From positions 248,001-312,000 of the forward strand of contig NZ_AP023065.1 in NCBI RefSeq assembly GCF_016593235.1: 64,000 bases of DNA, given 5' to 3'. Made by a program: the position numbers and the translations under genes. Within the stretch, counting starts at the first letter, position 1, and each line of letters starts with the position of its first letter. Below are positions 9,165 to 63,156 of this stretch, piece after piece. The notes under the pieces were generated by a model. The model was not told the DNA's origin and searched no databases. It saw nothing but the letters and a program-made list of their open reading frames with translations. This DNA comes from Nitratiruptor sp. YY09-18 (GTDB taxonomy: Bacteria > Campylobacterota > Campylobacteria > Campylobacterales > Nitratiruptoraceae).

Positions 9165-11207
9165 GTGAGTAAAGTATACTTTTCAAGCTGGAAAGATGAA
9201 TTGATTGATAATCGCGGCAAACCCAAAGAGGAGTGGGCCGAGTCAAAATACAACTTTCCGGTCAATTACAATATCGATGTAGCATCGAAAGCTTTCGTCG
9301 GGTGGGCTGGTTTGGCTCTCTTTGACGAAGATGTAGATGTGGCAAAACTGGCTACCGAATATGCTAAACAGTATCAAGTCTACTCTGAAGCTTGTGGGCG
9401 ATGTGCTCCAGGGAGATGGGGTGGACGCATTCTTTATGATCTTTTTGACAAGATTGCTCGCGGTGAAGGTGAAAAGAGCGATGTAGAGCATCTCAAAGAG
9501 GTCTCTCGTACTATGATGGAGACGAGCAAGTGTGAGATCGGGCGTACAGTTCCAAAGCCTCTTCTCGATATTTTGGAACATTTCGAAGATGAGATCAATG
9601 ATCTCATTGAAAACAAAAAGCCTTCAAAGTATTATCACAATCCAGAAATTAGCTACATAGCAAAAGTAACAGCTCCATGTATGGATGCATGTCCTGCCCA
9701 TGTAGATATCCCTGCATATATCGAAGGAGTACGTGATCTTCGCTATGATGATAGCCTTAAAGCTACGAGAAAAACTATGCCACTTGCCCATACATGTGGG
9801 CGTGTGTGTCCACACCCTTGTGAAGATGAGTGTCGCAGGGCAAATCTTGATGAGCCAATCTCCATAATGGAGCTCAAACGTATTGGAGCAGATTTTGAGG
9901 ATGAACATGGAATGTTTTGGCTCCATCCTCAAAAACAAAAACCCCTCACAGGTAAAAAAGTTGCAGTCATCGGTGCTGGACCTGCAGGACTCGCTGGAGC
10001 TTACTACCTTGGTCTTGAAGGTGTAGCATGTGATGTATATGAAGAGCTTCCTGTTCTTGGTGGAGAAGTGGCTGTTGGGGTACCAGAGTATCGCATGCCT
10101 GTCAAAAAATACAATAAAGATATAGAAGCAGTAAATTCTCTTGAGGGAGTACGTTTCATTACAGGAAAGCGTGTCACAGCAGATGATATGCGCAAATTTG
10201 AAAAAGAGTACGATGCGATTTTGGTTGCGACAGGTACGCGTATCAGTAAGAAGGTACGTGCAAAAAATGAGCGCCCCGAGATCAAAGGCTACTGGCCAGC
10301 TATAAATTTCCTTGATTGTGTGAATCTCTATGTAAAATATGGCATTCCAGTCCCAGAAGAGATCAGAAAACAGCAACATCTTGATAAAGAGTATGTAGAT
10401 CTTACTGGTAAAACCCTTGTATGTGTTGGTGGTGGTTTTACTTCTATGGACGTTGTGCGCTGTGCAGTACGTGCTAATGCAAAGAAGGTCATCATGCTCT
10501 ATCGCCGCGATGAAGCTACAATTATTCGCAATACAACATATGAAGAGTATCATGAGGCAGTAGAAGAGGGAGTGGAGTTTATCTTCTACTCTGCAGTTGA
10601 AGAGATCATAACTGATGAGAATGATAACCTCAAGGCTCTCAAAGTCAATCGCTTTGAACTTGTTCCTGACCCAGACGGTGGAAGACCGCAGCTCAAAAAG
10701 ATCGAAGGTGCAGACTTCATGATAGAATGCGACTACCTTGTGCCAGCAGTAAGTCAGAGTGCAGATCTTTCACATCTTCCAGAAGAGTGGGAGATAGAGC
10801 TCACAAGCTGGGGAACCATCAAAACTGATGGAAAAACCTATATGAGTTCGCGCGAAGGTGTCTTTGCTGCAGGTGATTGCGAGTATGGTCCTATGACAAT
10901 TGTCAATGCAGTTGGTCAGGCTAAAAGAGCAGCAAGCGTTATTACTCGCTATGTCCATACTGGTGAAGTGACGCTCACAGATGAAGAGATCATGGAAGAT
11001 CATCTTAGAGCCTTAAAAGTTTATGACAAAAATGAAAAAGTTAAGGGTTGGCTACCAGGACTTCCAAGACAGGTGAGCGAGAAGCTCACAGTTGAAGAGC
11101 GTAAGCATACCAATCTTGAAGTGAACCTTGGATTTACGCAAGAGCAGGCGATTGCAGAGGCGGAGCGCTGTATGCGTTGTTATTACATTGCAATGGTAGC
11201 GGTATAA
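9165..11207 (+). CDS. NuoF-position fusion: N3-like domain plus GltD-like FAD/NAD(P) oxidoreductase
   Basis: A 680-residue protein with GTG start. Residues about 70-145 resemble the C-terminal [4Fe-4S] (N3) domain of NuoF: Cys77 and Cys80 in CGRCAPG, and Cys123 in SKCEIG, but the third Cys of the usual CxxCxxC is Gly83. Residues about 165-230 form a GltD-type iron-sulfur domain (Cys172, 176, 211, 215, 219, 223). A first dinucleotide fold follows at VAVIGAGPAG (about 266-275, FAD) and a second at VCVGGGFTSMD (about 419-429) with YRRDE, a pattern that favours NADPH. The C-terminal AAGDCEYGP motif closes the FAD site. It probably feeds electrons into complex I from NAD(P)H or another donor in place of NuoEF. 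Confidence 0.8.
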   Translation: MSKVYFSSWKDELIDNRGKPKEEWAESKYNFPVNYNIDVASKAFVGWAGLALFDEDVDVAKLATEYAKQYQVYSEACGRCAPGRWGGRILYDLFDKIARGEGEKSDVEHLKEVSRTMMETSKCEIGRTVPKPLLDILEHFEDEINDLIENKKPSKYYHNPEISYIAKVTAPCMDACPAHVDIPAYIEGVRDLRYDDSLKATRKTMPLAHTCGRVCPHPCEDECRRANLDEPISIMELKRIGADFEDEHGMFWLHPQKQKPLTGKKVAVIGAGPAGLAGAYYLGLEGVACDVYEELPVLGGEVAVGVPEYRMPVKKYNKDIEAVNSLEGVRFITGKRVTADDMRKFEKEYDAILVATGTRISKKVRAKNERPEIKGYWPAINFLDCVNLYVKYGIPVPEEIRKQQHLDKEYVDLTGKTLVCVGGGFTSMDVVRCAVRANAKKVIMLYRRDEATIIRNTTYEEYHEAVEEGVEFIFYSAVEEIITDENDNLKALKVNRFELVPDPDGGRPQLKKIEGADFMIECDYLVPAVSQSADLSHLPEEWEIELTSWGTIKTDGKTYMSSREGVFAAGDCEYGPMTIVNAVGQAKRAASVITRYVHTGEVTLTDEEIMEDHLRALKVYDKNEKVKGWLPGLPRQVSEKLTVEERKHTNLEVNLGFTQEQAIAEAERCMRCYYIAMVAV

Positions 11208-11216
11208 AGGTAGGTA

Positions 11217-13493
11217 ATGGTTAAAATCTATATAGATGGCAAAGAGATACATGCAGATAAAAATGAGACAATTTTACAAGTAGCACGTAGAGAAGGAATA
11301 TATATCCCAACCATGTGTTATCTCTCAAAAGTCAAACCGATCGAATCGTGCCGTCTGTGCGTTGTGGAAGTAGAAGGGGTAGAAGGTTTTGTACTTAGCT
11401 GCCAGGCGCCAGTAGTACCTGGTATAAAAGTGACAACCAACTCCCAAGCCCTCTATGAGCATCGCCAAAATATTATGAAACTCTATGATGTAAACCACCC
11501 ATTAGAGTGCGGTGTATGTGATAAGAGCGGTGAGTGTGATTTGCAAAACAAAACACTTGAATTCGATGTGGATTCGCAAGAGTTTACAGCAAAAGATCAG
11601 TATCGACCGATTGCAAACTGGAAGTATATCCAGTATGATCCGAGCCTCTGTATTTTGTGTGAAAAGTGTGTGCATGTTTGTAATGAAGTAATAGGCGATG
11701 ATGCGATTGATATCTTCTTTGGTGGATACAAATCCCACATAATACCAAAAAACGCTCCCACGCTAGATTGTACATTCTGTGGTGAATGTATAGCAGTTTG
11801 TCCAGTAGGAGCGCTGATTAGTAGCGATTTCAAATACACTTCCAACGCTTGGGAACTTCGTCAAATTCCAGCTTCTTGCGCACACTGTAGTGCGGCATGC
11901 CATCTCTACTACAACGTCAAGCATAGCTCTATAGAAAACCCAGAACCAAAAATCTATAGAGTCAAAAATGAGTATGAATTTGAGACACTCTGTGGAGCTG
12001 GCAGATTTGGATTTGATTTTGAAAACCGCGAAGCAAAAAAAGATCAAGAGCAGTTTAACAGGGCGGTAGAGGCTTTCAAAAAGGCTGATGCTATTCGCTT
12101 TAGTTCATTTATTACTAATGAAGAGGCTTTGATTCTCCAAAAAATGAAGGAGAAGTTTGGCTATAAGCTTATTAATGAAGAGGCTAGAAACTACCAAAAA
12201 TTTCTCGAAAATTTTGCCAAGACCAGTGGGAAAACTCTCTATGATGCAAATTTGGAAACAATCGAAAAGAGCGATTTTATAATTCTTCTTGGAAGTTTTG
12301 CTTCTTCAGATAATCCCGCAGTGCGCTATGCATTTACAGTAGCACATAAAAGACGCAAAGCTGAAATTATTAATATGCATCCAGTCGAGGATGATCTGCT
12401 CAAACCAATTGTGACAAAGTTTATTAAATATGAAGTAGGAAGCGAAGAGGCAGCTCTGGGTATGCTTCTTGAAGCATTGAGTGATGAGAAGGCAAAAGAG
12501 GAGATTGGCAAAGAGTGGTTTGATGAGCTTGATATTGGGTATTTGAGTGCTGAATCAAATATTGGCGAAGAAGAGATTGAAGATATCATGCAGCGTTTAG
12601 CACGCAAGAAAAGACTCAGAGAAGATCGCTGCACACTCATTCTCGGTGAGGATCTCTACGCACATCCAAGGGCGCAGAATATAGCAAAACTTGCTGGACT
12701 CATCGATAGATTTACAGATTTTGATGTGATGATTATTCCACCAAAAACAAATAGTTTGGGAGTAGCACTTATCTGCGATCTTGATGATGAGCCAGGAGAG
12801 TACACAATCGGCTATAACGCACCTGGAGACTTTGTACTGAGCGCATTGGGTGATGGGGATCTCGATATGCCAGCACTCAACCAACAAGAGGGAACATTTA
12901 CAAATATAGATAAACGTGTTGTACCTACAAATGTTGCCTTACCATATAAAGGGTATGTACTCAATGATATAGCAAGAGCACTAGGAGTGAGTGATAAAGA
13001 GTATACCATCGAGTTTACCGAGGAGCTTCCACAAGAAAAAGGGTATAAGCCTCTAGCATTCGATGATCTACCAAATGAGTTTTTAAATGATGGGACAGAG
13101 CAAAGAGGCTACGTACTTGAGCCACAAAAAGTGAACTTGTCACGCAAAAATATAGAGCCAATAGCAGAGCTACCAGAGTTTAATGGCACAGTCGTCTATC
13201 GCTGTGAGCCTGTACTGCAGTTTAGCCCTTTTACCAACAAAGCACATCAGCTTGCATGGAGTTGTGATCTCATTGGTTCTGAGCAGTTTGCACTGGCTGC
13301 AAAACTAAAAGATGGAGAGGAGGTAGTAGTGCACTCTTCATATGGAAAAATCAAAAAAACTTTCAAAATCGATCCAAAACTCAAAGGAACTGTAGCATTA
13401 ATGGGGGTGAGTGATCTTGGTATGGACTATTTTGCAATGCAAGGAACGTATCGCTATGAAAGAGTAAAAATCACAAAGAGAGATGAGCAATGA
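11217..13493 (+). CDS. nuoG: NADH-quinone oxidoreductase subunit G, copy 1
   Basis: An iron-sulfur subunit of 758 residues. The N-terminal [2Fe-2S] domain has Cys in TMCYLS, SCRLC and SCQAP. The His-Cys [4Fe-4S] site is HPLECGVCDKSGECDLQN. The ferredoxin pair is CILCEKCVHVC and CTFCGECIAVCPVGA, and a further CAHCSAACH motif starts the molybdopterin-type domain. Residues 474-678 are encoded by the 617-bp block shared almost perfectly with copy 2, while the flanks and the C-terminal tail (about 80 residues) differ. It ends overlapping the copy 2 start by 4 bp. Confidence 0.93.
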   Translation: MVKIYIDGKEIHADKNETILQVARREGIYIPTMCYLSKVKPIESCRLCVVEVEGVEGFVLSCQAPVVPGIKVTTNSQALYEHRQNIMKLYDVNHPLECGVCDKSGECDLQNKTLEFDVDSQEFTAKDQYRPIANWKYIQYDPSLCILCEKCVHVCNEVIGDDAIDIFFGGYKSHIIPKNAPTLDCTFCGECIAVCPVGALISSDFKYTSNAWELRQIPASCAHCSAACHLYYNVKHSSIENPEPKIYRVKNEYEFETLCGAGRFGFDFENREAKKDQEQFNRAVEAFKKADAIRFSSFITNEEALILQKMKEKFGYKLINEEARNYQKFLENFAKTSGKTLYDANLETIEKSDFIILLGSFASSDNPAVRYAFTVAHKRRKAEIINMHPVEDDLLKPIVTKFIKYEVGSEEAALGMLLEALSDEKAKEEIGKEWFDELDIGYLSAESNIGEEEIEDIMQRLARKKRLREDRCTLILGEDLYAHPRAQNIAKLAGLIDRFTDFDVMIIPPKTNSLGVALICDLDDEPGEYTIGYNAPGDFVLSALGDGDLDMPALNQQEGTFTNIDKRVVPTNVALPYKGYVLNDIARALGVSDKEYTIEFTEELPQEKGYKPLAFDDLPNEFLNDGTEQRGYVLEPQKVNLSRKNIEPIAELPEFNGTVVYRCEPVLQFSPFTNKAHQLAWSCDLIGSEQFALAAKLKDGEEVVVHSSYGKIKKTFKIDPKLKGTVALMGVSDLGMDYFAMQGTYRYERVKITKRDEQ
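12636..13252 (+). repeat. 617-bp direct repeat, copy in nuoG1
   Basis: Identical to 15131-15747 except for one base (C at 13122, T at 15617; Pro to Ser). The offset is 2495 bp and the block is in the same codon phase in both genes. The bases just outside differ at both ends. Confidence 0.97.
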
Positions 13494-45372: not shown

Positions 45373-45395
45373 CTAAAAAATAATTTTGGTTGTAC

Positions 45396-45422
45396 GATAA
45401 TGTGAATTGCAGGATGACCTGC
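45396..45422 (+). promoter_or_regulatory. Pseudopilin promoter and 5'-end hairpin
   Basis: GATAAT at 45396-45401 preceded by TGTAC is a possible -10. The expected start of transcription falls at about 45408, immediately before the hairpin GCAGG-ATGA-CCTGC (45409-45422), which would cap the mRNA. AAAGGAG precedes ATG 45450. Confidence 0.4.
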
Positions 45423-45449
45423 GAGAAAATTTCATTCAAAGGAGACGTC

Positions 45450-45962
45450 ATGAGACGTGGTGGTTTTACTATGATCGAGTTGATCTTCGTGATCGTAATC
45501 TTGGGTATTTTGGCAGCAGTTGCATTGCCAAAGTTCATCGGTGTGACAAGCCAGGCAAAAGCTGGTAAAGCACAAGCATTTGTTGGAACAATGAACAGAA
45601 CAGTCTTTCCAACACTATGGAGTAAAGCAATGGCTACTGGTACAGATGGTGATATCACTCAGCTCAAGAATGCATCTGGTTCTGCAATGACATTGGCTGA
45701 TCTTAAAGATTACATAGATTTACCAGACAAGCTTCAAGATACTTCAGGTACACCATTGAAAAATAGTTCAACTGCATTGTCAAATGCATGTGGTAATGGT
45801 AGTGGTGGTAGTTTACCTCAATTTGGTCAATATGACATTGGTAACGCGCAAGTTCCTATTTACTGCTTTGAAGGGAATGCTACAAATGCACCATTCTTGA
45901 CATTTGATGCAAGTAATGTAGCAGAACCAAATACAACTATTCCTTCTAACTATCTCATGTAA
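45450..45962 (+). CDS. Type II/IV pseudopilin 1
   Basis: A 170-residue prepilin-like protein with a very short leader MRRGG and a cleavage site G/FTMIEL followed by the hydrophobic helix FVIVILGILAAVALPKF. The soluble domain has a pair of Cys (ACGNG, YCFEG) likely to form a disulfide. I chose ATG 45450 with AAAGGAG before it; the frame is open 20 codons upstream. It leads a run of three pseudopilin genes before priA. It could serve a type II secretion system or a type IV pilus; no assembly ATPase is in view. Confidence 0.85.
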   Translation: MRRGGFTMIELIFVIVILGILAAVALPKFIGVTSQAKAGKAQAFVGTMNRTVFPTLWSKAMATGTDGDITQLKNASGSAMTLADLKDYIDLPDKLQDTSGTPLKNSSTALSNACGNGSGGSLPQFGQYDIGNAQVPIYCFEGNATNAPFLTFDASNVAEPNTTIPSNYLM

Positions 45963-46010
45963 TCATGTTATGAAGGCTTCTTTGGCCTTCATAACTATAA
46001 TATAAAAAAA

Positions 46011-46463
46011 ATGAAAAAAGCTTTTTCACTTCTAGAAATTATTTTTGTCTTACTTATATTAGGAATATTGGCTGCTATATCTATACCAGTCTATTTTCAG
46101 ATGCAAGCACAATCTGCACAAACAGTAGCAAAAGCTTTTGCAGCAACTCTCACACGCACAACCGGCCATACGCTATGGGCAAAATCTATCTTTGCAGGTG
46201 GTGAGGGAAGTCTTAAAAGTGATAATGACAATAATCCATCGACCTTTTATGGAAATAATTTAAATCTCTACATTACAATACCGCAATATTTCGATAAAAG
46301 TTCGGTAAATTTTGACAATTGTGCTAAAGTAGGTGAAGTTGCACAGCCTTTTATAGCAAAAAATGTGGAAAAAGGCGGTGAATATAATATTTTCTGTCGT
46401 GATGGTAACAAAACAGATGCGCCTAAATTTGTCTCTTCAAAACAAAGCAGCTATAATTTCTAG
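46011..46463 (+). CDS. Pseudopilin 2
   Basis: A 150-residue prepilin-like protein. The N-terminus is MKKAFSLLEI; the residue before the Phe is Ala in place of Gly, with Glu5 of the mature protein kept. The hydrophobic helix is IIFVLLILGILAAISIPV. The C-terminal domain shares the layout of pseudopilin 1, with two Cys (NCAKVG, FCRDGN), so the two are probably old duplicates. No good Shine-Dalgarno is seen. The gene is 48 bp after pseudopilin 1. Confidence 0.8.
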   Translation: MKKAFSLLEIIFVLLILGILAAISIPVYFQMQAQSAQTVAKAFAATLTRTTGHTLWAKSIFAGGEGSLKSDNDNNPSTFYGNNLNLYITIPQYFDKSSVNFDNCAKVGEVAQPFIAKNVEKGGEYNIFCRDGNKTDAPKFVSSKQSSYNF

Positions 46464-46464
46464 T

Positions 46465-46878
46465 ATGAAACGAGCATTTACATTAATAGAACTACTCTTT
46501 GTAATCTTAGCAATTGGTATTTTGGCCTCAATTGCAATTCCAAAATTTACTGGTGCTCTCAATGAAGCGAAGCTTGCCGAAGTCAAATCTACCGTCACTG
46601 CTGTTCGCAGTGGATTGCAGGTGTATAAAAACAAGCATATTCTTCTTGGTCAATCTCCTTATCCAAATGATCTGAGCGGAAGTAGTGGGCTTTTTGAAAA
46701 AGTGCTACCACATCCTGTTGCTCAAGATACGCAAAAGGGATGGGAAAAGGTCTCAAATACTTTATATAAATACCATTTAGATGGCAATATTATAGCTTTT
46801 ACATATAACCCAACCAACGGAAGCTTTGATTGTGACCAAAACCAATCAACTATTTCAGGAATTTGCAACAACTTTTGA
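46465..46878 (+). CDS. Pseudopilin 3 (GspG-like)
   Basis: A 137-residue prepilin-like protein from ATG 46465. The N-terminus is MKRAFTLIELLFVILAIG, again with Ala at -1. The mature part has EAKLAEVKSTVTAVRSGLQVYKN, a pattern like GspG-type major pseudopilins, and two Cys near the C-terminus. It begins one base after the stop of pseudopilin 2, and its TGA overlaps the ATG of priA. Confidence 0.82.
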   Translation: MKRAFTLIELLFVILAIGILASIAIPKFTGALNEAKLAEVKSTVTAVRSGLQVYKNKHILLGQSPYPNDLSGSSGLFEKVLPHPVAQDTQKGWEKVSNTLYKYHLDGNIIAFTYNPTNGSFDCDQNQSTISGICNNF

Positions 46879-53170: not shown

Positions 53171-53205
53171 ATTTTTCCATTAACTCCATATTAACAGCTG
53201 CTATA

Positions 53206-53211
53206 TATAAT
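53206..53211 (+). promoter_or_regulatory. -10 element of the PqqD/ATP-grasp operon
   Basis: TATAAT, 18 nt before ATG 53230, inside an inverted repeat GCTAT-ATATA-ATAGC (53200-53214) that could be an operator. GGAGGAAG is a strong ribosome site. Confidence 0.5.
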
Positions 53212-53229
53212 AGCACAAAAGGAGGAAGT

Positions 53230-53466
53230 ATGCTGATAAATGAGTTACACATTGATCAAAACAATATCGCTTTTGTCCCATCACTTGGCATTACATTTGA
53301 GCTTAATGAGACTGGCAAAGAGATTATTGATTTATTGAAAGAGATCAAGACAAAAGATGAAATTGTGCATGAACTTGCACAAAAATATGAAAAGGATTGG
53401 AGAGAGGTCTATATCGATGTGGAGGATTTTCTCCTCAAGCTCAAACTTTTTGGATTGTATCAATGA
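53230..53466 (+). CDS. PqqD-like small protein (possible RiPP recognition element fold)
   Basis: A 78-residue protein with the PqqD-family layout: an N-terminal beta region (HIDQNNIAFVPSLGITFELN), then LNETGKEIIDLLKE and TKDEIVHELAQKYEKD, and a last helix VEDFLLKLKLFGLY. PqqD-type domains bind leader peptides for modifying enzymes. No PQQ gene is nearby. It overlaps the ATP-grasp gene by 4 bp, so the two probably work together. I see no precursor peptide gene in the operon. Confidence 0.75.
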   Translation: MLINELHIDQNNIAFVPSLGITFELNETGKEIIDLLKEIKTKDEIVHELAQKYEKDWREVYIDVEDFLLKLKLFGLYQ

Positions 53467-54470
53467 AAATAGCAATTAGTGGACTCAATAACACAGACAA
53501 TCCTGCTCCAGGGATGGGAGTTGCCAAAGGCTTACAAAAAGAAAATAATCTCATTGGTCTAGCTTATGATCCAAATGAGCCAGGGATTTACCAGGATATT
53601 TTTGAACATGTCTACCTCATGCCCTATCCATCTTTTGGTATAGAGACATTTTTGGAACGTATAGAGTATATCAAGCAAAAAAGCGGCATAGAGGTCTATA
53701 TTCCTAATCTTGATGCAGAGTTGCCACTATGCATAAAACATCAACAAAAGTTTGAAGATTTAGGTATTGCTACGCTTTTACCAACCATCAAGCAGTTTGA
53801 TCTACGCCAAAAATCTTCCTTGGCAGATTTGGCAAAAGAGCTCAATGTCAAATATCCAGATACTTTCATTATCAATAGTATTGATGATCTTGTTGCGGTT
53901 ACAAAAGAGTTGGGCTTTCCTTGTATGATCAAGGGCAACTACTACAAAGCTTATAAAGTTCACAACCTAGATGAAGCTATTGAAAAATTTTACACAATAT
54001 CGAATGAATGGGGATTTCCGCTACTGTTGCAGCAAATTGTAGCAGGTGAAGAGATAAATTTTGTAGGAGTAAGCAGCAGCGAGCTTTATGGAGGATTTGC
54101 CATAAAAAAACTCCAAATGACAGATCTTGGAAAAGTCTGGAGTGCGGTAACAATCAAAAATAAAAAATTGATAGATTTGGCTTACAACTTTGTGGAGTAT
54201 AGTGGATGGAGAGGAGCTTTTGAGTTAGAAGTTTTGGCAGGAGGAGATGAGATCTATCTCATCGAAATCAATCCGCGTTTTCCAGCCTGGGTCGGGTTTG
54301 GTGTAGACATTGGACTCAACCTTCCAAAGCTTTATATAGATATTATGTTAGGAAAAAAACCGCAAAAACTGCTGGATTATCCTGAAGGAAAACTGTACAT
54401 GCGCTATGTGAGTGAGGCGGTAAGTGATTTTTCCACACTTGCATCACTAATTAAAAACAAGGAGCTTTGA
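53463..54470 (+). CDS. ATP-grasp ligase
   Basis: A 335-residue enzyme of the carbamoyl-phosphate-synthase-like ATP-grasp fold. The N-terminal pre-ATP-grasp domain begins KIAISGLNNTDNP. The central domain has GFPCMIKGNYYKAYKV (ATP Lys) and LLLQQIVAGEEINFVG, and the Mg site is LIEINPRFPAW. It would activate a carboxylate by acyl phosphate and join it to an amine. Substrate unknown. ATG 53463 overlaps the stop of the PqqD-like gene. The stop overlaps the next start (TGATG). Confidence 0.85.
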   Translation: MKIAISGLNNTDNPAPGMGVAKGLQKENNLIGLAYDPNEPGIYQDIFEHVYLMPYPSFGIETFLERIEYIKQKSGIEVYIPNLDAELPLCIKHQQKFEDLGIATLLPTIKQFDLRQKSSLADLAKELNVKYPDTFIINSIDDLVAVTKELGFPCMIKGNYYKAYKVHNLDEAIEKFYTISNEWGFPLLLQQIVAGEEINFVGVSSSELYGGFAIKKLQMTDLGKVWSAVTIKNKKLIDLAYNFVEYSGWRGAFELEVLAGGDEIYLIEINPRFPAWVGFGVDIGLNLPKLYIDIMLGKKPQKLLDYPEGKLYMRYVSEAVSDFSTLASLIKNKEL

Positions 54471-55795
54471 TGTACCAAAAACCAACGATTAATCGAATAG
54501 ATTTTAGTGCAACAAAACATGGAAATTATGGTAATCCATACAGATCTCAAAAAATAAAAAGTGAAATTGATGGATTTAATGTCAATGAACTTGTAGCAAA
54601 TTTTGGCTCTCCTCTTTTTGTTTTTAGCAAAAAAGAGATAGAGAAAAAGTATGATGCATTCAAAGACGCATTTGTTTCCCGCTATCCAGAAGTAGAGTTT
54701 TATTGGAGTTACAAAACGAACTATCTTGGAGCTATCTGTAAAACATTTCACGATCTTGGAAGTAAGGCAGAAGTTGTCAGTGCTTTTGAATATGATAAAG
54801 CTAGAAGCTTAGGGGTAGAGGGAAGAGATATTATTTTTAATGGTCCATATAAACCAAAAGAAGCTCTCAAAAAGGCAGTGCTTGAAGGAGCAAAAATCCA
54901 CATAGATCACTGGCATGAGATCAATGATTTAGAAGATATTGCCACAGAGCTTGGCAAAGAGATTCCAGTAGCAATTCGCTGCAATATGGATACAGGTATC
55001 TATCCTGCATGGAGTCGCTTTGGATTTAATATCGATAACGGCGAAGCATATGATGCAATTGAGAGAATCTATAAAGGTCAAAAACTTATTCTTACTGGTT
55101 TGCATACACATATTGGAACTTTTATGCTTGCAGCTAATGCATACCAAGTAGCTGTAACAAAACTTATGCAACTTAGAAAAAGGGTACAAGAGGATTTTGG
55201 ATACAGTATAGAATATATCGATATTGGTGGAGGATTTGCTAGTAAAAACCGCCTCAAAGGTATATATCAGCCACCTGAAGTTGTTGTTCCGACACCTGAT
55301 GAATATGCTGAAGCAATTGTTGATGCGATTTATGAAAATGCTGATGATAGATTGCCAAAACTCTATCTTGAAACGGGACGTGCTCTTATAGATGAGGCTG
55401 GATATCTTCTTACATCTGTTTTTGCTTCAAAAAGACTTCCAGATGGAAAAGTCTCTTATATTTTAGATGCTGGAGTTAATCTCCTCTATACATCATTTTG
55501 GTACAATTTTGACATTTTTCTTGACAAAAAACATGAAGGTTTGAATGAACCAAGCCAACTTAATGGTCCACTTTGTATGAATATTGACGTTATCGCAGAT
55601 AATATTATGTTGCCTCCTCTCCAAAGAGGTGATGTGCTTACTATCTGGCCTGTGGGGGCTTATACCATTACGCAATCGATGCAATTTATTCAATACAGAC
55701 CGCGTGTTATTATGATAGACAAAGAACCAATTTTGATACGTGAAAGTGATGATTTAGCATATGTCAGTGAAAAAGAAATTAGCGATATTTTTTAA
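54470..55795 (+). CDS. PLP-dependent decarboxylase (diaminopimelate/ornithine decarboxylase fold III)
   Basis: A 441-residue alanine-racemase-fold decarboxylase. The PLP Lys is in FYWSYKTNYLGA near residue 82, followed by GSKAEVVSAFEYDKA. The barrel has HTHIGT and DIGGGFASK. The phosphate site is LETGRALIDEAGYL, and the second-domain Cys is in GPLCMNIDV. It resembles LysA, but the motifs depart from canonical DAP decarboxylase, so another amino acid or a peptide-bound residue may be the substrate. GGAG 5 nt before ATG 54470 fixes the start. It overlaps the next gene by 35 bp. Confidence 0.85.
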   Translation: MYQKPTINRIDFSATKHGNYGNPYRSQKIKSEIDGFNVNELVANFGSPLFVFSKKEIEKKYDAFKDAFVSRYPEVEFYWSYKTNYLGAICKTFHDLGSKAEVVSAFEYDKARSLGVEGRDIIFNGPYKPKEALKKAVLEGAKIHIDHWHEINDLEDIATELGKEIPVAIRCNMDTGIYPAWSRFGFNIDNGEAYDAIERIYKGQKLILTGLHTHIGTFMLAANAYQVAVTKLMQLRKRVQEDFGYSIEYIDIGGGFASKNRLKGIYQPPEVVVPTPDEYAEAIVDAIYENADDRLPKLYLETGRALIDEAGYLLTSVFASKRLPDGKVSYILDAGVNLLYTSFWYNFDIFLDKKHEGLNEPSQLNGPLCMNIDVIADNIMLPPLQRGDVLTIWPVGAYTITQSMQFIQYRPRVIMIDKEPILIRESDDLAYVSEKEISDIF

Positions 55796-57788
55796 ACCTT
55801 ATAGCGCAATACTTTTCCTCAATGATCCAAAAGCTGGTATGCTTTTGGCTCTTTTGAGTTTTTTGCTTCCGAGTGTAGGGGCATTGGGGCTTGTAGCACT
55901 AGTTGCCACTATACTTTTTGCTGAGTTTGTTAATATGCGCGAAGAATATTTGCGCTATGGTTTTTATCTTTATAATTCCCTTTTGGTTGGTTTTGGTATT
56001 GGCTTTTTTTACCAAATATCAATTTTGAGCATTATTCTGACTATATTGCTCGCTATTTTTACATTTTTGCTTTCATTTAGTCTCAATCGTATATTTATAA
56101 AATATGGAATCCCTATCCTCTCGCTTCCCTTTAGTTTAGTAAGTATTCTATTTTTCCTCGCAAGTCTCAAATATACAACCCTCTTAACAAATCTTTTAGA
56201 CAGGCAGCCACTATTTGATATTGCTTTACCTTTTGAATATTTTTTTAAAACGGTAGGGGAGATCTTTTTCCTTCCATATAATATTGTGGGTTTTGTTGTC
56301 TCCCTTCTTATCCTTTGGTTTTCTCGTATACTCTTTTTCTTGATGTTTGCTGGATTTGGAGTTGGAGTGGCTGTCCACTCACTTTTTGTCCAAACATCTG
56401 AGGCGCTTTGGTCTTTATATAATTTCAATTTTTTATTGATAGCAATGGCTTTAGGCGGTATCTTCTTAATACCACATATAAAAAACTATGTTTTAGCTCT
56501 TATAGCTGTGGCTTTGAGTGTCTTTATCAGCGATGCAATGCAGGTCTTTTTTAATCTTTTTAATATCCCTGTCTATACTATTCCATTCAATATTATTGTC
56601 ATTCTCTTTGTTTTCTTGCTCTATACGATGGGATATCGACTGTTTGCATATATTATTAAAAGAACACCAGAAGAGACTTTGGAATACTATTTGGCTAACA
56701 CATTGCGTTTTGGTGCAAATAGTCGAAAGATATCTTTGCCATTTTTGGGAGAGTGGAGTGTCTACCAAGCTTTTGATGGTGAGTGGACCCATAGAGGAGA
56801 CTGGAAATATGCCTATGATTTTATAAAAATTCAAGATGGCAAAAGTTATGCAGGAAGTGGTGTCTCTTTACAAGAGTATTATGCATATGGTCAAGATGTT
56901 GTAGCTCCTGTCAACGGGTATATTGTCGATATACGAGATGATTTACCAGATAATCCTATAGGTGTAGTTGATCGTATACATAATTGGGGAAATTTCATTA
57001 TAATCAAAAGCGATGAGGGATTTTTTGTGGAGATCTCTCATCTCATGCAACACTCGATCAAAGTGCGTATAGGTGAATATGTTAAATCTGGTCAAATGAT
57101 AGCAAAGTGTGGCAACTCGGGATACTCTCCAGAGCCCCACATACACATACAAGTCCAAGAATATCAATTTCTTGGAGCACGGACGCTCCCTTTTGTATTT
57201 GATCAATATATACAAAAGAGTAAGCTTATATTTCATGGTTTACCTCGCGAAAAAGAGCTTATAGAAAACGTTTCAAAAGATAGAGCACTTTTTGATAAAC
57301 TCAGTTTTGTACTTGATGAAAAATATACTTATGAAGTGATGGGAGAAGGAGATAAAAAAGAGAGCTACTCTTTTACAGTCAAAATGAATGATTTGGGAGA
57401 ATTTTATTTTTATGACGGAGAGAATAGAGCCTATTTTGCGATGAATGAAAAAATGTTTTATTTTTATGATTATAAAGGAAAAGAGAGCTATCTTAAACAC
57501 CTTTATCTCATTGCTCCTCGAATACCTTTTATTGCCAAAAGGGTAGAATTTATCGACTTTATTCCTCTATCATTATATGCGAAGGGATTTAAAAAAATAT
57601 GTTTGGAATTTGTCGTTTCGTTTTGTCATAGATTGGGACGCTTTGCACAGGTATACTACAAAGATCGTCTAGAGCAAAAAAGTGATTATGGAATGGTAAA
57701 ATTCTCATTCTATAATAAAGGTTTTGAGGAGATCTCTTATGGCCAAACAGTTTTGAGGAGAAAGATCGATGAGAATAGTTCTATTTAG
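55761..57788 (+). CDS. Urea-transporter-like channel fused to M23 peptidase domain
   Basis: A 675-residue protein. Residues about 15-300 hold ten or so helices that match the urea-transporter layout (LFLNDPKAGMLLALLSF, then YLYNSLLVGFGIGFF, repeated in the second half). Residues about 325-480 form an M23 metallopeptidase: THRGDWKYAYDF (His and Asp ligands), VEISHLM and EPHIHIQVQ (final His pair). A C-terminal beta region of about 190 residues follows. The peptidase would probably face the periplasm. The start lies 35 bp inside the decarboxylase gene. Urea transport itself is not shown. Confidence 0.75.
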   Translation: MSVKKKLAIFFKPYSAILFLNDPKAGMLLALLSFLLPSVGALGLVALVATILFAEFVNMREEYLRYGFYLYNSLLVGFGIGFFYQISILSIILTILLAIFTFLLSFSLNRIFIKYGIPILSLPFSLVSILFFLASLKYTTLLTNLLDRQPLFDIALPFEYFFKTVGEIFFLPYNIVGFVVSLLILWFSRILFFLMFAGFGVGVAVHSLFVQTSEALWSLYNFNFLLIAMALGGIFLIPHIKNYVLALIAVALSVFISDAMQVFFNLFNIPVYTIPFNIIVILFVFLLYTMGYRLFAYIIKRTPEETLEYYLANTLRFGANSRKISLPFLGEWSVYQAFDGEWTHRGDWKYAYDFIKIQDGKSYAGSGVSLQEYYAYGQDVVAPVNGYIVDIRDDLPDNPIGVVDRIHNWGNFIIIKSDEGFFVEISHLMQHSIKVRIGEYVKSGQMIAKCGNSGYSPEPHIHIQVQEYQFLGARTLPFVFDQYIQKSKLIFHGLPREKELIENVSKDRALFDKLSFVLDEKYTYEVMGEGDKKESYSFTVKMNDLGEFYFYDGENRAYFAMNEKMFYFYDYKGKESYLKHLYLIAPRIPFIAKRVEFIDFIPLSLYAKGFKKICLEFVVSFCHRLGRFAQVYYKDRLEQKSDYGMVKFSFYNKGFEEISYGQTVLRRKIDENSSI

Positions 57789-58380
57789 TTTATTATGTGT
57801 AGTAATTCTTACTGCTGCAAATTTTGAAAAATCTTTGCAAGAGTCTTATCGGTATGAGGCATTACAAGATTATAAAAAAGCTATTGAGGTTTTGATTCCA
57901 AATTACAAAAGGAGCTCAAGAGACTACTTTCTCAATCTTCGTTTGGGTTGGCTTACATATAAACTCAAACAATATGCTAATGCAAAAGAGTACTACTCCA
58001 AAGCAGCGATGATCAAGCCGCAATCATTTGAGCCAAAACTTGGTCTAATGAGAGTATTGTTAGCCCAAGGGGACAACGAAGGCGTCATTGAATATGGAAA
58101 TGCAATATTGAAAGAAGATACATATAACTACTATGCAAATCTCTATATTGCCTATGCGATGTTAGGGAAAAATGATCTACTTACTGTTCAAAAAATTGCT
58201 CGAAAGATACTACGACACTATCCAACAGATCAAAACTTTTTGTTGATTTTGGCCAAGACATATCAAACGAGTAATCCTCAACAAGCAAAGACTCTTTATA
58301 GAATAATATTGCGATACTACCCCACGAATATTGCTGCAAGAGAATATCTCTATGAAACTGCTCCTTCTAGCACAAAGTAA
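57769..58380 (+). CDS. Secreted TPR-repeat protein
   Basis: A 203-residue protein with a signal peptide (MRIVLFSLLCVVILTAANF) and about four TPR-like helix pairs, for example YFLNLRLGWLTYKLKQYANA and LANLYIAYAM-like units, ending in YPTNIAAREYL. It is probably a periplasmic or outer-membrane scaffold for the other gene products. It overlaps the M23 fusion gene by 20 bp and the regulator gene by 29 bp. Confidence 0.8.
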   Translation: MRIVLFSLLCVVILTAANFEKSLQESYRYEALQDYKKAIEVLIPNYKRSSRDYFLNLRLGWLTYKLKQYANAKEYYSKAAMIKPQSFEPKLGLMRVLLAQGDNEGVIEYGNAILKEDTYNYYANLYIAYAMLGKNDLLTVQKIARKILRHYPTDQNFLLILAKTYQTSNPQQAKTLYRIILRYYPTNIAAREYLYETAPSSTK

Positions 58381-58948
58381 TTTAGCACAACTCGATATCA
58401 AATATGATCATGTTGTAGATATTGAGGGATTGGAACAAAAAAGTTTCATACAAAAATATGATCTCTTATTGGCCGATTTTGCCTTTTTTGGCACGATTTC
58501 TCAGTATAAAAATCTATTTTCTTATATTATACTCCTCACAAATATGTGTGATGAGCAATCGTATGCAAGAGCTTTGCAAATTGCTGATGATTGTATACTT
58601 TGGCAAGAGAGCAAAAAAATAGAAGCAAGAATATCTTACTATCAAAAAAAATTATATAACCTTCAAAATGCGATCTTTTCATATAGAGACTTGCGATTTG
58701 ATGTAAAAAGGGGCGAACTGTTTAAAGGAAGAGATCATATAGCTCTAAGCAATGCACAAAAAGAGCTTCTGCTTTTGCTTTTGAAAAATATGGGAAGTTA
58801 TGTACAAAAGCATACTATATTGCAAGAGTGTGACTCTATCAATAGTGAAAATTCCATAAAAGTCTTAATTGCAAAGCTAAGGGGTCTTGGTTTTACAATT
58901 GAGAGTCAACCATCTCAAGGCTATAAAATTGTAAAGGAGAAGAGGTGA
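58352..58948 (+). CDS. Orphan OmpR/PhoB-type regulator with degenerate receiver
   Basis: A 198-residue protein. Residues 1-95 have the outline of a response-regulator receiver (YDLLLADFAFFG near the phospho-Asp position, FSYIILLTN near the conserved Thr), but the acidic pocket at the N-terminus and the conserved Lys are not evident. Residues about 110-198 form a winged helix: LSNAQKELLLLLLKNMGSYV, then SENSIKVLIAKLRG and SQPSQGYKIVK. No histidine kinase is near. It may regulate the operon without phosphorylation. ATG 58352 overlaps the TPR gene. Confidence 0.75.
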   Translation: MKLLLLAQSNLAQLDIKYDHVVDIEGLEQKSFIQKYDLLLADFAFFGTISQYKNLFSYIILLTNMCDEQSYARALQIADDCILWQESKKIEARISYYQKKLYNLQNAIFSYRDLRFDVKRGELFKGRDHIALSNAQKELLLLLLKNMGSYVQKHTILQECDSINSENSIKVLIAKLRGLGFTIESQPSQGYKIVKEKR

Positions 58949-59766
58949 AAAAGTTATCAATAGTATCATTTATGGCAGCTTCTTTGCTAGCAGGTGATAT
59001 TGTTCTTCCATATGGAGGATATATTGCATACACTGGGAATACAAAAAGAGATAGTGCGTATTTAGCAGGGGTGTTTTTGAGTCATAGCACAAAAAAATAT
59101 GCGTTAGATGTGGATTTAGAGTATATGAGAATTTCATATGATGGAGGTATACCTACATATAAGCAAAAGAGTGCAGCACTTCTTTATCACTATTATCAAG
59201 GAGAACATATAGTATATGAAATTGGAATGAATAATATTTTCACTGACCAAGGTAACAATGATGATTATCAAAAAGTTTTCACAGCTGGCATACTTTACTA
59301 TGATTATTTGCATTACAATTATGGTGTAAACCTCCATTATAGCAGCTATGATGGTTTTCATGTTTGGCAAGTATCTCCAAAAGTCGGTATAAATTTTGGT
59401 GATTATAAATCTCAAATTGGCTCTTTCTACGCCCAAGTACAATATAACTACATAAATATCAGTGAAGATTGGGCAGCTCTAAAAGATAACTACTCCAATG
59501 CAGATATTAAGCTTACCAATTTTAATGGGAGTTTTACAACAACAGCCCAAGCGAGTTTTGGTAAAAATGCCTACAAAGTAGCAAAAGAGGGATTTGTTGT
59601 ATTTAATTTAGGTGAAGAGTATCATACTAGTTATGGGTTATCTGTTGCAAAAGCATTAAGTAAAAACAGTTCTCTAAAAATCCAAGGCACACGAGCGAGA
59701 TTTTATGAGCAAAACAAAAAGGCCCATAGCAATATATTTGTAGTGAGCTATACAAGAGCTTTTTAA
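58945..59766 (+). CDS. Putative outer-membrane beta-barrel protein
   Basis: A 273-residue protein with a signal peptide (MKKLSIVSFMAASLLAG) and alternating aromatic/polar strands such as YALDVDLEYMRISY and LHYNYGVNLHYSSYDG, ending in a Tyr-Thr-Arg-Ala-Phe strand as in outer-membrane barrels with a terminal Phe. I count about 12 candidate strands. It is last in the seven-gene operon and overlaps the regulator by 4 bp. It may be a porin or receptor; substrate unknown. Confidence 0.75.
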   Translation: MKKLSIVSFMAASLLAGDIVLPYGGYIAYTGNTKRDSAYLAGVFLSHSTKKYALDVDLEYMRISYDGGIPTYKQKSAALLYHYYQGEHIVYEIGMNNIFTDQGNNDDYQKVFTAGILYYDYLHYNYGVNLHYSSYDGFHVWQVSPKVGINFGDYKSQIGSFYAQVQYNYINISEDWAALKDNYSNADIKLTNFNGSFTTTAQASFGKNAYKVAKEGFVVFNLGEEYHTSYGLSVAKALSKNSSLKIQGTRARFYEQNKKAHSNIFVVSYTRAF

Positions 59767-61977: not shown

Positions 61978-63156
61978 ATGCGAAAGATACTTTTACTTTC
62001 TCTTTTTGTAGTGCTTCTCTTTGCTGGCAAAATCCGCTATGAACACTGGAAGCAGGGGCAGACTCTTTTAGGATTTTTAGATGCTCATGGGATCAACGCA
62101 AAGCTGTATTACAATCTAGATGGAGAAGACAAAGAGCTTGCCAGCGAAATCCGTGCCGGTGTCAAGTTTATTGCTGATTATAATGGGACGCAACTCTTAC
62201 AAGCGCTCATTCCTATCAATGAAGAACTGCAGATCCATATCTTTCGTAAAAATGGAGGGTACGCCCTAGATCTCATACCTATACACTACCAAAAAATTCA
62301 TGATAAGTTTGGGTTAGCAATTCATTCTAGTCCCTATAATGCAATAGTGCATAACACAAAAAATTTGCGCTTAGCACATGAGTTTGTAGCAGCATTTAAA
62401 CATACTGTTGATTTTACGAGGCTGCACAAAGGCGACAAAATTGCTGCAATATATGATCAAAAAGTGCGCTTAGGCGACTTTTTTGGGATGCCAACACTCT
62501 ATGCAGCAATGGTGCAACGTGACAAGAGGCGCTATTTTGTATTCAATTTTGAAGAGAGATTTTATGACGAGAAGGGACAAGAACTTGAGAGATTCCTTCT
62601 TGTGCGGCCAATTCCTGGAGCGCGAATAACTTCTAGATTTACTCTCAAGCGATGGCATCCAGTCTTGCATCGCTATAGAGCGCATTTAGGGGTCGATTTT
62701 GGAGCAAGACGAGGGACTCCCATACGTGCATCAGGAAATGGGCGTGTGGTGTTTTGTGGGCGTAAAGGGGGATATGGAAACTGTATCATCATCGATCATG
62801 GGCAAGGCTATAAAACTCTCTATGCACACATGTCGCGATTTCGCCATGGAATGCGAAGAGGCAAACATGTCAAACAGGGACAAATTATAGGCTATGTAGG
62901 TAGCACAGGTCTTAGTACTGGGCCGCATCTGCATTTTGGTCTATATAAAAACAATCGTGCAATCAATCCTTTGCGCGTAGTGAGGATTGCCAAGAGCCGT
63001 TTGAGTGGAAAGAAGCTGAGAAAATTTAAAAAAATCGTAGCAAAGTATAAAAAAGAGCTCATTGAGTGCGCCAAGAGAGAATGCAAACCTATCGTAATAG
63101 AAAAAGTTGAGCAAAGCAGCTGCCAATTGCAAGGAGGGGAAAATGCAAAAGGATGA
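61978..63156 (+). CDS. M23 peptidoglycan DD-endopeptidase (Pgp3/Csd-like)
   Basis: A 392-residue secreted LytM-domain endopeptidase that trims peptidoglycan cross-links and shapes the cell. It has a signal peptide (MRKILLLSLFVVLLFAG), an N-terminal domain of about 190 residues with an inhibitory or binding role, and the M23 domain with HLGVDFGARRGTPI (Zn His and Asp), YAHMSRF and GPHLHFGLYKN. The C-terminal basic tail (SGKKLRKFKKIVAKYKKE) holds Cys. It overlaps mgtE by 14 bp. Confidence 0.9.
   Translation: MRKILLLSLFVVLLFAGKIRYEHWKQGQTLLGFLDAHGINAKLYYNLDGEDKELASEIRAGVKFIADYNGTQLLQALIPINEELQIHIFRKNGGYALDLIPIHYQKIHDKFGLAIHSSPYNAIVHNTKNLRLAHEFVAAFKHTVDFTRLHKGDKIAAIYDQKVRLGDFFGMPTLYAAMVQRDKRRYFVFNFEERFYDEKGQELERFLLVRPIPGARITSRFTLKRWHPVLHRYRAHLGVDFGARRGTPIRASGNGRVVFCGRKGGYGNCIIIDHGQGYKTLYAHMSRFRHGMRRGKHVKQGQIIGYVGSTGLSTGPHLHFGLYKNNRAINPLRVVRIAKSRLSGKKLRKFKKIVAKYKKELIECAKRECKPIVIEKVEQSSCQLQGGENAKG

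Follow-up and report, generated by a model that had tools for sequence, protein, structure and literature searches.

A horizontally mobile and apparently undescribed six-gene module pairing a PqqD-like protein, an ATP-grasp ligase and a PLP decarboxylase with a channel-peptidase fusion

The window analyzed here, a 64,000-nucleotide stretch of the 1.76-Mb genome of Nitratiruptor sp. YY09-18 (contig NZ_AP023065.1, positions 248,001-312,000), contains seven open reading frames at 53230-59766, all on the plus strand. The first encodes a 78-aa PqqD/RRE-like protein (53230-53466), followed by a 335-aa ATP-grasp ligase of the CPSase-like/PRK12767 group (53463-54470), a 442-aa PLP decarboxylase of the alanine-racemase fold (54467-55795; Pfam Orn/DAP/Arg decarboxylase, 1e-30) and a fusion protein (55761-57788) in which a UT-type channel (residues ~9-290; PF03253, 1e-59) is joined to a Peptidase_M23 domain (~330-490; 3e-12) and a C-terminal beta domain (491-675). 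The remaining three genes encode a 203-aa TPR protein with an N-terminal signal-like sequence (57769-58380), an OmpR-type regulator with a degenerate receiver and a weak winged-helix match (58331-58948; PF00486, 9e-5), and a 273-aa predicted outer-membrane beta-barrel (58945-59766) that matches no family in Pfam or NCBIfam. Adjacent genes overlap by 4, 4, 35, 20, 29 and 4 bp in this order, the TPR/regulator overlap of 29 bp applying to an alternative ATG start at 58352 and growing to 50 bp with the TTG at 58331. Seven mostly overlapping genes had been described here in an initial annotation, whose coordinates and domain calls were confirmed. All seven proteins stay below the NCBIfam equivalog cut-offs, and a role in anti-phage defence was rejected because none of the seven matches a PADLOC model. 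Elsewhere in the window, a second, secreted M23 peptidase is encoded ~2 kb downstream (61978-63156), outside the conserved module, and three neighboring upstream reading frames (45390-46878) have N-termini resembling those of type IV pilins (MIELIFVIVILGILA and the like).

When 84,980 species genomes were scanned, 226 relatives of the fusion protein were recovered. The best 80 of these 226 include copies from Campylobacterota, Aquificota, Calditrichota, Ignavibacteriota, Bacteroidota (Kapaibacterium), Verrucomicrobiota, Gemmatimonadetes, Firestonebacteria, Vulcanimicrobiota and, within Pseudomonadota, Thiotrichaceae, Thiomargarita and Francisella SYW-9, with the proviso that many carriers are metagenome bins whose single taxon labels may reflect misbinning (e.g. 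Gracilibacteria L100 and Mariprofundaceae L091); the copy in L100 indeed clusters with Campylobacterota in trees. Profile searches placed the genes for the PqqD-like protein, the ligase and the decarboxylase directly upstream of the fusion gene in 71 of the 73 loci with enough upstream DNA. Two loci lack this trio: in L109 the fusion gene is solitary (9974-12067), and in L067 it is accompanied by the TPR protein and regulator only (9977-12010). Of 46 loci, the TPR protein was found in 44, the barrel in 42 and the regulator in 24; neither TPR protein nor barrel follows in Francisella L110. The first four genes keep a constant order wherever they are present, and the barrel gene may stand before the PqqD-like gene, after the fusion gene, or last. 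Beside the module in L051 (12588-14554) and L056 (12639-14542), two tandem barrel genes lie on the opposite strand.

Among 298 Campylobacterota genomes, the fusion occurs in 15, including two broken copies, and the ligase and decarboxylase, scored at thresholds set so that paralogues drop out, are present in all of these 15 and confined to them. Larger stretches from 14 of the 15 carriers show the same gene set within unrelated flanks, and beyond a histidine kinase the differing flanks of the compared loci hold no conserved neighbor that would reveal the function; a glcD-type gene downstream is common to the window and another Nitratiruptor sp. (L049). Such recurrence of order and content in dozens of loci across about ten phyla is far above chance, and the conserved linkage excludes the scattering that would have spoken against a joint system. 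The regulator, which the initial annotation had regarded as built in, is on these counts accessory, leaving a core of six genes.

These genes also share their history. Correlations of pairwise distances between the first four proteins range from 0.90 to 0.94, and maximum-likelihood trees of the fusion protein, decarboxylase and ligase have well-supported clades in common while recording whole-module transfers. For example, the window's copy clusters with Nautiliaceae-type copies, those of a genome of the same family (G056) cluster with Hydrogenimonas instead, and the Francisella SYW-9 copies fall within or beside the Sulfurimonas/Sulfurovum group. No plasmid-borne copies of the module were found. 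Moreover, the module decays as a block in two genomes: in one (G223) five of the seven genes are broken while every flanking gene aligns in one piece, and in another (G052) regulator, kinase, decarboxylase and fusion gene are broken between intact flanks, as expected of a unit with one joint function. At L047 (4996-10973) and L046 (2404-10430), several frameshifts or stops interrupt the module between intact flanking genes, which points to a recent loss of function. Taken together, the six genes form a self-contained, horizontally mobile and apparently undescribed module.

Upstream of the operon lies a direct-repeat box, CATTAAC-TCCA-TATTAAC (CATTAACTCCATATTAAC; 53178-53195, plus strand), with the 11-bp period of OmpR/PhoB-type sites, followed 10 bp later by a putative -10 element (TATAAT, 53206-53211, plus strand) and then by a ribosome-binding site (AGGAGG, 53220-53225). 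In relatives, the repeat YATTAAC-N4-YATTAAC is mostly found 52-63 nt before the first gene and ~10-13 nt before a TATAAT-like hexamer, and many of them have such a hexamer at similar spacing. At least 12 of 14 positions match in 23 of 32 relatives with a regulator versus 5 of 42 in which no regulator is visible, counts that are descriptive only, as the motif was defined after viewing the same sequences and some of the 42 loci are cut by contig ends. Within the 1.76-Mb genome the exact box occurs once, at the operon, and one-mismatch matches do not exceed the control. The single promoter claimed at first is plausible in its TATAAT element, although counts of sigma-70 patterns in the region equal those in shuffled sequence. 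Regulator-bearing loci are nearly all from Campylobacterota, and about a dozen have a histidine kinase beside the regulator; an intact receiver joined to an OmpR domain is present in L094 and a kinase in L073, whereas the window's receiver is degenerate and has no adjacent kinase. We propose that in this genome the resident OmpR-type regulator may control the operon through the direct-repeat box.

The PqqD-like assignment stands (PF05402, E = 6e-12): the nearest solved structure is TbiB1, a lasso-peptide RRE, so that the small protein displays the RRE fold expected in a RiPP cluster, although it scores under every NCBIfam PqqD equivalog cut-off. Its partner, the ATP-grasp ligase, carries an EINPRF motif that is invariant among relatives. 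This membership of the PqqD family, closest to lasso-peptide RREs, and the presence of a dedicated peptidase, features shared with the PQQ, mycofactocin and lasso-peptide pathways, would suit a RiPP-type cofactor or signal whose precursor is encoded elsewhere, bound by the RRE, modified, and excised by the M23 domain. Unlike those pathways, the module comes with no radical-SAM enzyme, cyclase or other classical RiPP tailoring enzyme, and a search of flanks and gaps at more than 70 loci, which a distant precursor would escape, yielded no conserved small or precursor reading frame. The lack of a precursor in cis leaves a ribosomal origin of the substrate unsupported; a classical RiPP cluster was rejected on this ground, and the wider RiPP-type reading we regard as unlikely. 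Of the peptide-like product first suggested, the amide-ligase and decarboxylase chemistry remains in favor. Another likeness is the butirosin side-chain pathway, where a small protein (BtrI), a ligase (BtrJ) and a fold-III decarboxylase (BtrK) act on a tethered amino acid. BtrJ is itself an ATP-grasp enzyme. Whereas BtrI is an acyl carrier, the module's PqqD-like protein is not, and the module adds membrane and envelope parts and lacks aminoglycoside genes.

For the decarboxylase, the claim that it is not LysA held: all 18 genomes tested encode a separate LysA scoring 513-554 bits against TIGR01048 (cut-off 297.9), compared with 214-232 bits for the intact system enzymes, and all 18 also encode two other members of the family, one long and SpeA-like, the other more distant. 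The catalytic set, K83 (PLP lysine), H215 (stacking), E302 (pyridine) and C370 (catalytic), is invariant in 80 of 80 members, as is W345. In the same 80, the DAP-binding arginine and glutamate are missing, the LysA arginine being replaced by T342 and the CESGD motif by CMNID, whereas the nine LysA compared retain arginine and CESGD. Bit scores, the separate LysA and the pocket residues together led us to reject both LysA and a polyamine decarboxylase. The nearest solved structure is FigC, an N-citrylornithine decarboxylase, at 246 bits, ahead of DAP decarboxylases at 210 bits. FigC/FslC, SbnH, AcsE, MccE and BtrK belong to clade 2 of the study from which the specificity residues were taken (PMC7857480); the module enzyme shares with them the fold, the catalytic K/H/E/C and the loss of DAP- and polyamine-binding residues, and its M371, the methionine after the catalytic cysteine, T342 and Y346 agree with FigC. 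It differs in that the FigC citrate contacts H357, R387 and N389 are replaced by I373 and Q403 (80/80) and M405 (78/80; M/L), in its score under the NCBIfam cut-off (218 versus 500 bits), and in having an ATP-grasp partner in place of an NIS synthetase. An N-citrylornithine decarboxylase was rejected because these contacts are replaced, which also implies that the acyl partner is not citrate. By its residues, the enzyme therefore belongs to neither the LysA nor the FigC class, and a single pocket fixed across many phyla implies a single substrate. Since MccE acts on a modified peptide and BtrK on carrier-bound glutamate (PMC7857480), a conjugate is the favored substrate, and the module enzyme may likewise decarboxylate a conjugated amino acid.

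The fusion protein is modeled at a mean pLDDT of 93, its UT part folding like dvUT (TMt 0.8) and its M23 part like LytM-type enzymes. To our knowledge, no peptidase has been seen before as part of a channel of the urea family, and no counterpart of this passive channel joined to a protease was found. The putative zinc and catalytic residues H344, D353, H427, H460 and H462 are invariant in 69 of 69 members. M23 enzymes of known function are mostly wall hydrolases that work outside the cytoplasm. UT subunits have ten helices and, in solved structures, a pore constriction of ~2-2.5 Å (PMC10541013). An even number of helices puts both ends of the UT part on one side of the membrane, and loop charges (net ~+6 for the canonical 'in' segments, ~0 for 'out') make that side the cytoplasm; some members (L107, L116), moreover, carry long hydrophilic N-tails without a signal sequence. 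We consider it probable, on topology and the positive-inside rule, that the M23 domain faces the cytoplasm. The fusion first described is real; the envelope placement of its peptidase is disfavored.

This topology bears on a second alternative, peptidoglycan remodeling or salvage, in which a periplasmic M23 domain would act on muropeptides while ligase and decarboxylase rework DAP fragments imported through the channel. An intact M23 site in a LytM-type wall-hydrolase fold and a decarboxylase distantly related to DAP decarboxylases are in keeping with it. A cytoplasmic M23 domain makes muropeptide cleavage unlikely, however, and the N-tails of L107 and L116, the DAP-binding residues missing throughout and UT pores too narrow for muropeptides all weigh the same way, so that we hold this reading to be quite improbable. 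The narrow constriction (PMC10541013) also means that only a urea-sized molecule, rather than a peptide, would pass.

A third alternative is uptake and assimilation of urea or small amines with M23 as a regulatory domain, for which the UT fold and the conserved mid-pore residues speak. The dvUT filter residues compared comprise Q24, E187 and a mid-pore set, part of them taken from PMC4357013. The module channel resembles dvUT and mammalian UT-B (TMt ~0.8) in its ten helices and in its mid-pore residues, with F19, N72, S121, F124 and F276 kept in 69 of 69 members and T273 in 67 of 69. It departs from them in its fusion to M23 and a beta domain, in the equivalents of the pore-mouth residues Q24 and E187, which vary among members, and in having no adjacent urease. 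No convincing urease was found in the 15 carrier genomes, the only matches being of 35-50 residues within frames of ~400 aa; urea nutrition was rejected for this reason, and the alternative as a whole has little probability.

The last two core proteins support the initial view that the system reaches the envelope, as TPR and barrel proteins of relatives have signal-like N-termini and the final reading frame is modeled as a 14-strand barrel (mean pLDDT 94) that folds like FadL, OmpG and CymA (TM ~0.6). Three loci from Verrucomicrobiota encode a barrel fused to a second TPR domain (L123, 5995-7590; L124, 5200-6597; L127, 12024-13547), which supports the TPR protein and the barrel as probable physical partners. 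Secreted TPR proteins likewise work with outer-membrane barrels in the exporters PgaA, BcsC and PelB; the module differs in its small barrel of 14 strands and 273 aa and in having no polysaccharide synthase. The barrel further counts against a rhizoferrin-like route to a small siderophore or metallophore with an ATP-grasp enzyme replacing the NIS synthetase, a very improbable reading for which the rhizoferrin enzyme FigC, as nearest solved relative sharing M371, T342 and Y346, is the argument, and against which stand the replaced citrate contacts, Fur boxes that are not enriched upstream (3 of 74 versus 1.9 expected) and a barrel without plug, unlike 22-strand TonB-dependent receptors; the changed citrate residues and missing Fur-box enrichment led us to reject a citrate siderophore.

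We favor, with somewhat less than even confidence, a reading in which the six-gene module makes and releases an amide-linked, decarboxylated amino-acid conjugate. Parts, co-inheritance, catalytic residues and the private decarboxylase pocket are observed, and from them we infer an order of reactions, a direction of flow and a product as follows. The PqqD/RRE-like protein would present the ATP-grasp ligase with an acceptor, either a peptide or another acyl donor; the ligase would form an amide through the side chain of an amino acid, leaving its alpha-amino and alpha-carboxyl groups free. The PLP decarboxylase would then strip that carboxyl to give an amine tail, a chemistry suggested by fold and pocket and comparable to that of FigC, SbnH, MccE and BtrK. 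At the mouth of the fused UT-type channel, the M23 domain, if it faces the cytoplasm as its topology predicts, may hydrolyze the conjugate, and the channel would pass a small neutral product outwards to the periplasm. Finally, the barrel and the TPR protein, the latter in the periplasm, may jointly move the product over the outer membrane.

If so, the module could represent a new class of biosynthesis-and-release system spanning about ten phyla, a step we take more tentatively still, in which RRE/PqqD, ATP-grasp and conjugate-specific decarboxylase make a compound, the M23-UT fusion cuts and vents it, and TPR protein and barrel provide the exit. That it matches no named pathway (PQQ, LysA and standard RiPP clusters included) is borne out, as no family library has a name for it and the searchable literature, outside which most subscription papers lie, contains no report naming this gene set. 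An intact, ordered module with invariant active sites over about ten phyla must serve something specific, likely the making of an unfamiliar metabolite used by vent and sulfur-oxidizing chemolithotrophs, among others. Because the decarboxylase pocket is invariant and the distribution all-or-nothing, its product is directly amenable to metabolomics.

Apart from the module, a plasmid of Thermus thermophilus encodes an M23 protein (L148, 7641-8600) that has a multi-helix N-terminus and is unusually near to the M23 part of the system only; its gene lies near a type III CRISPR locus.
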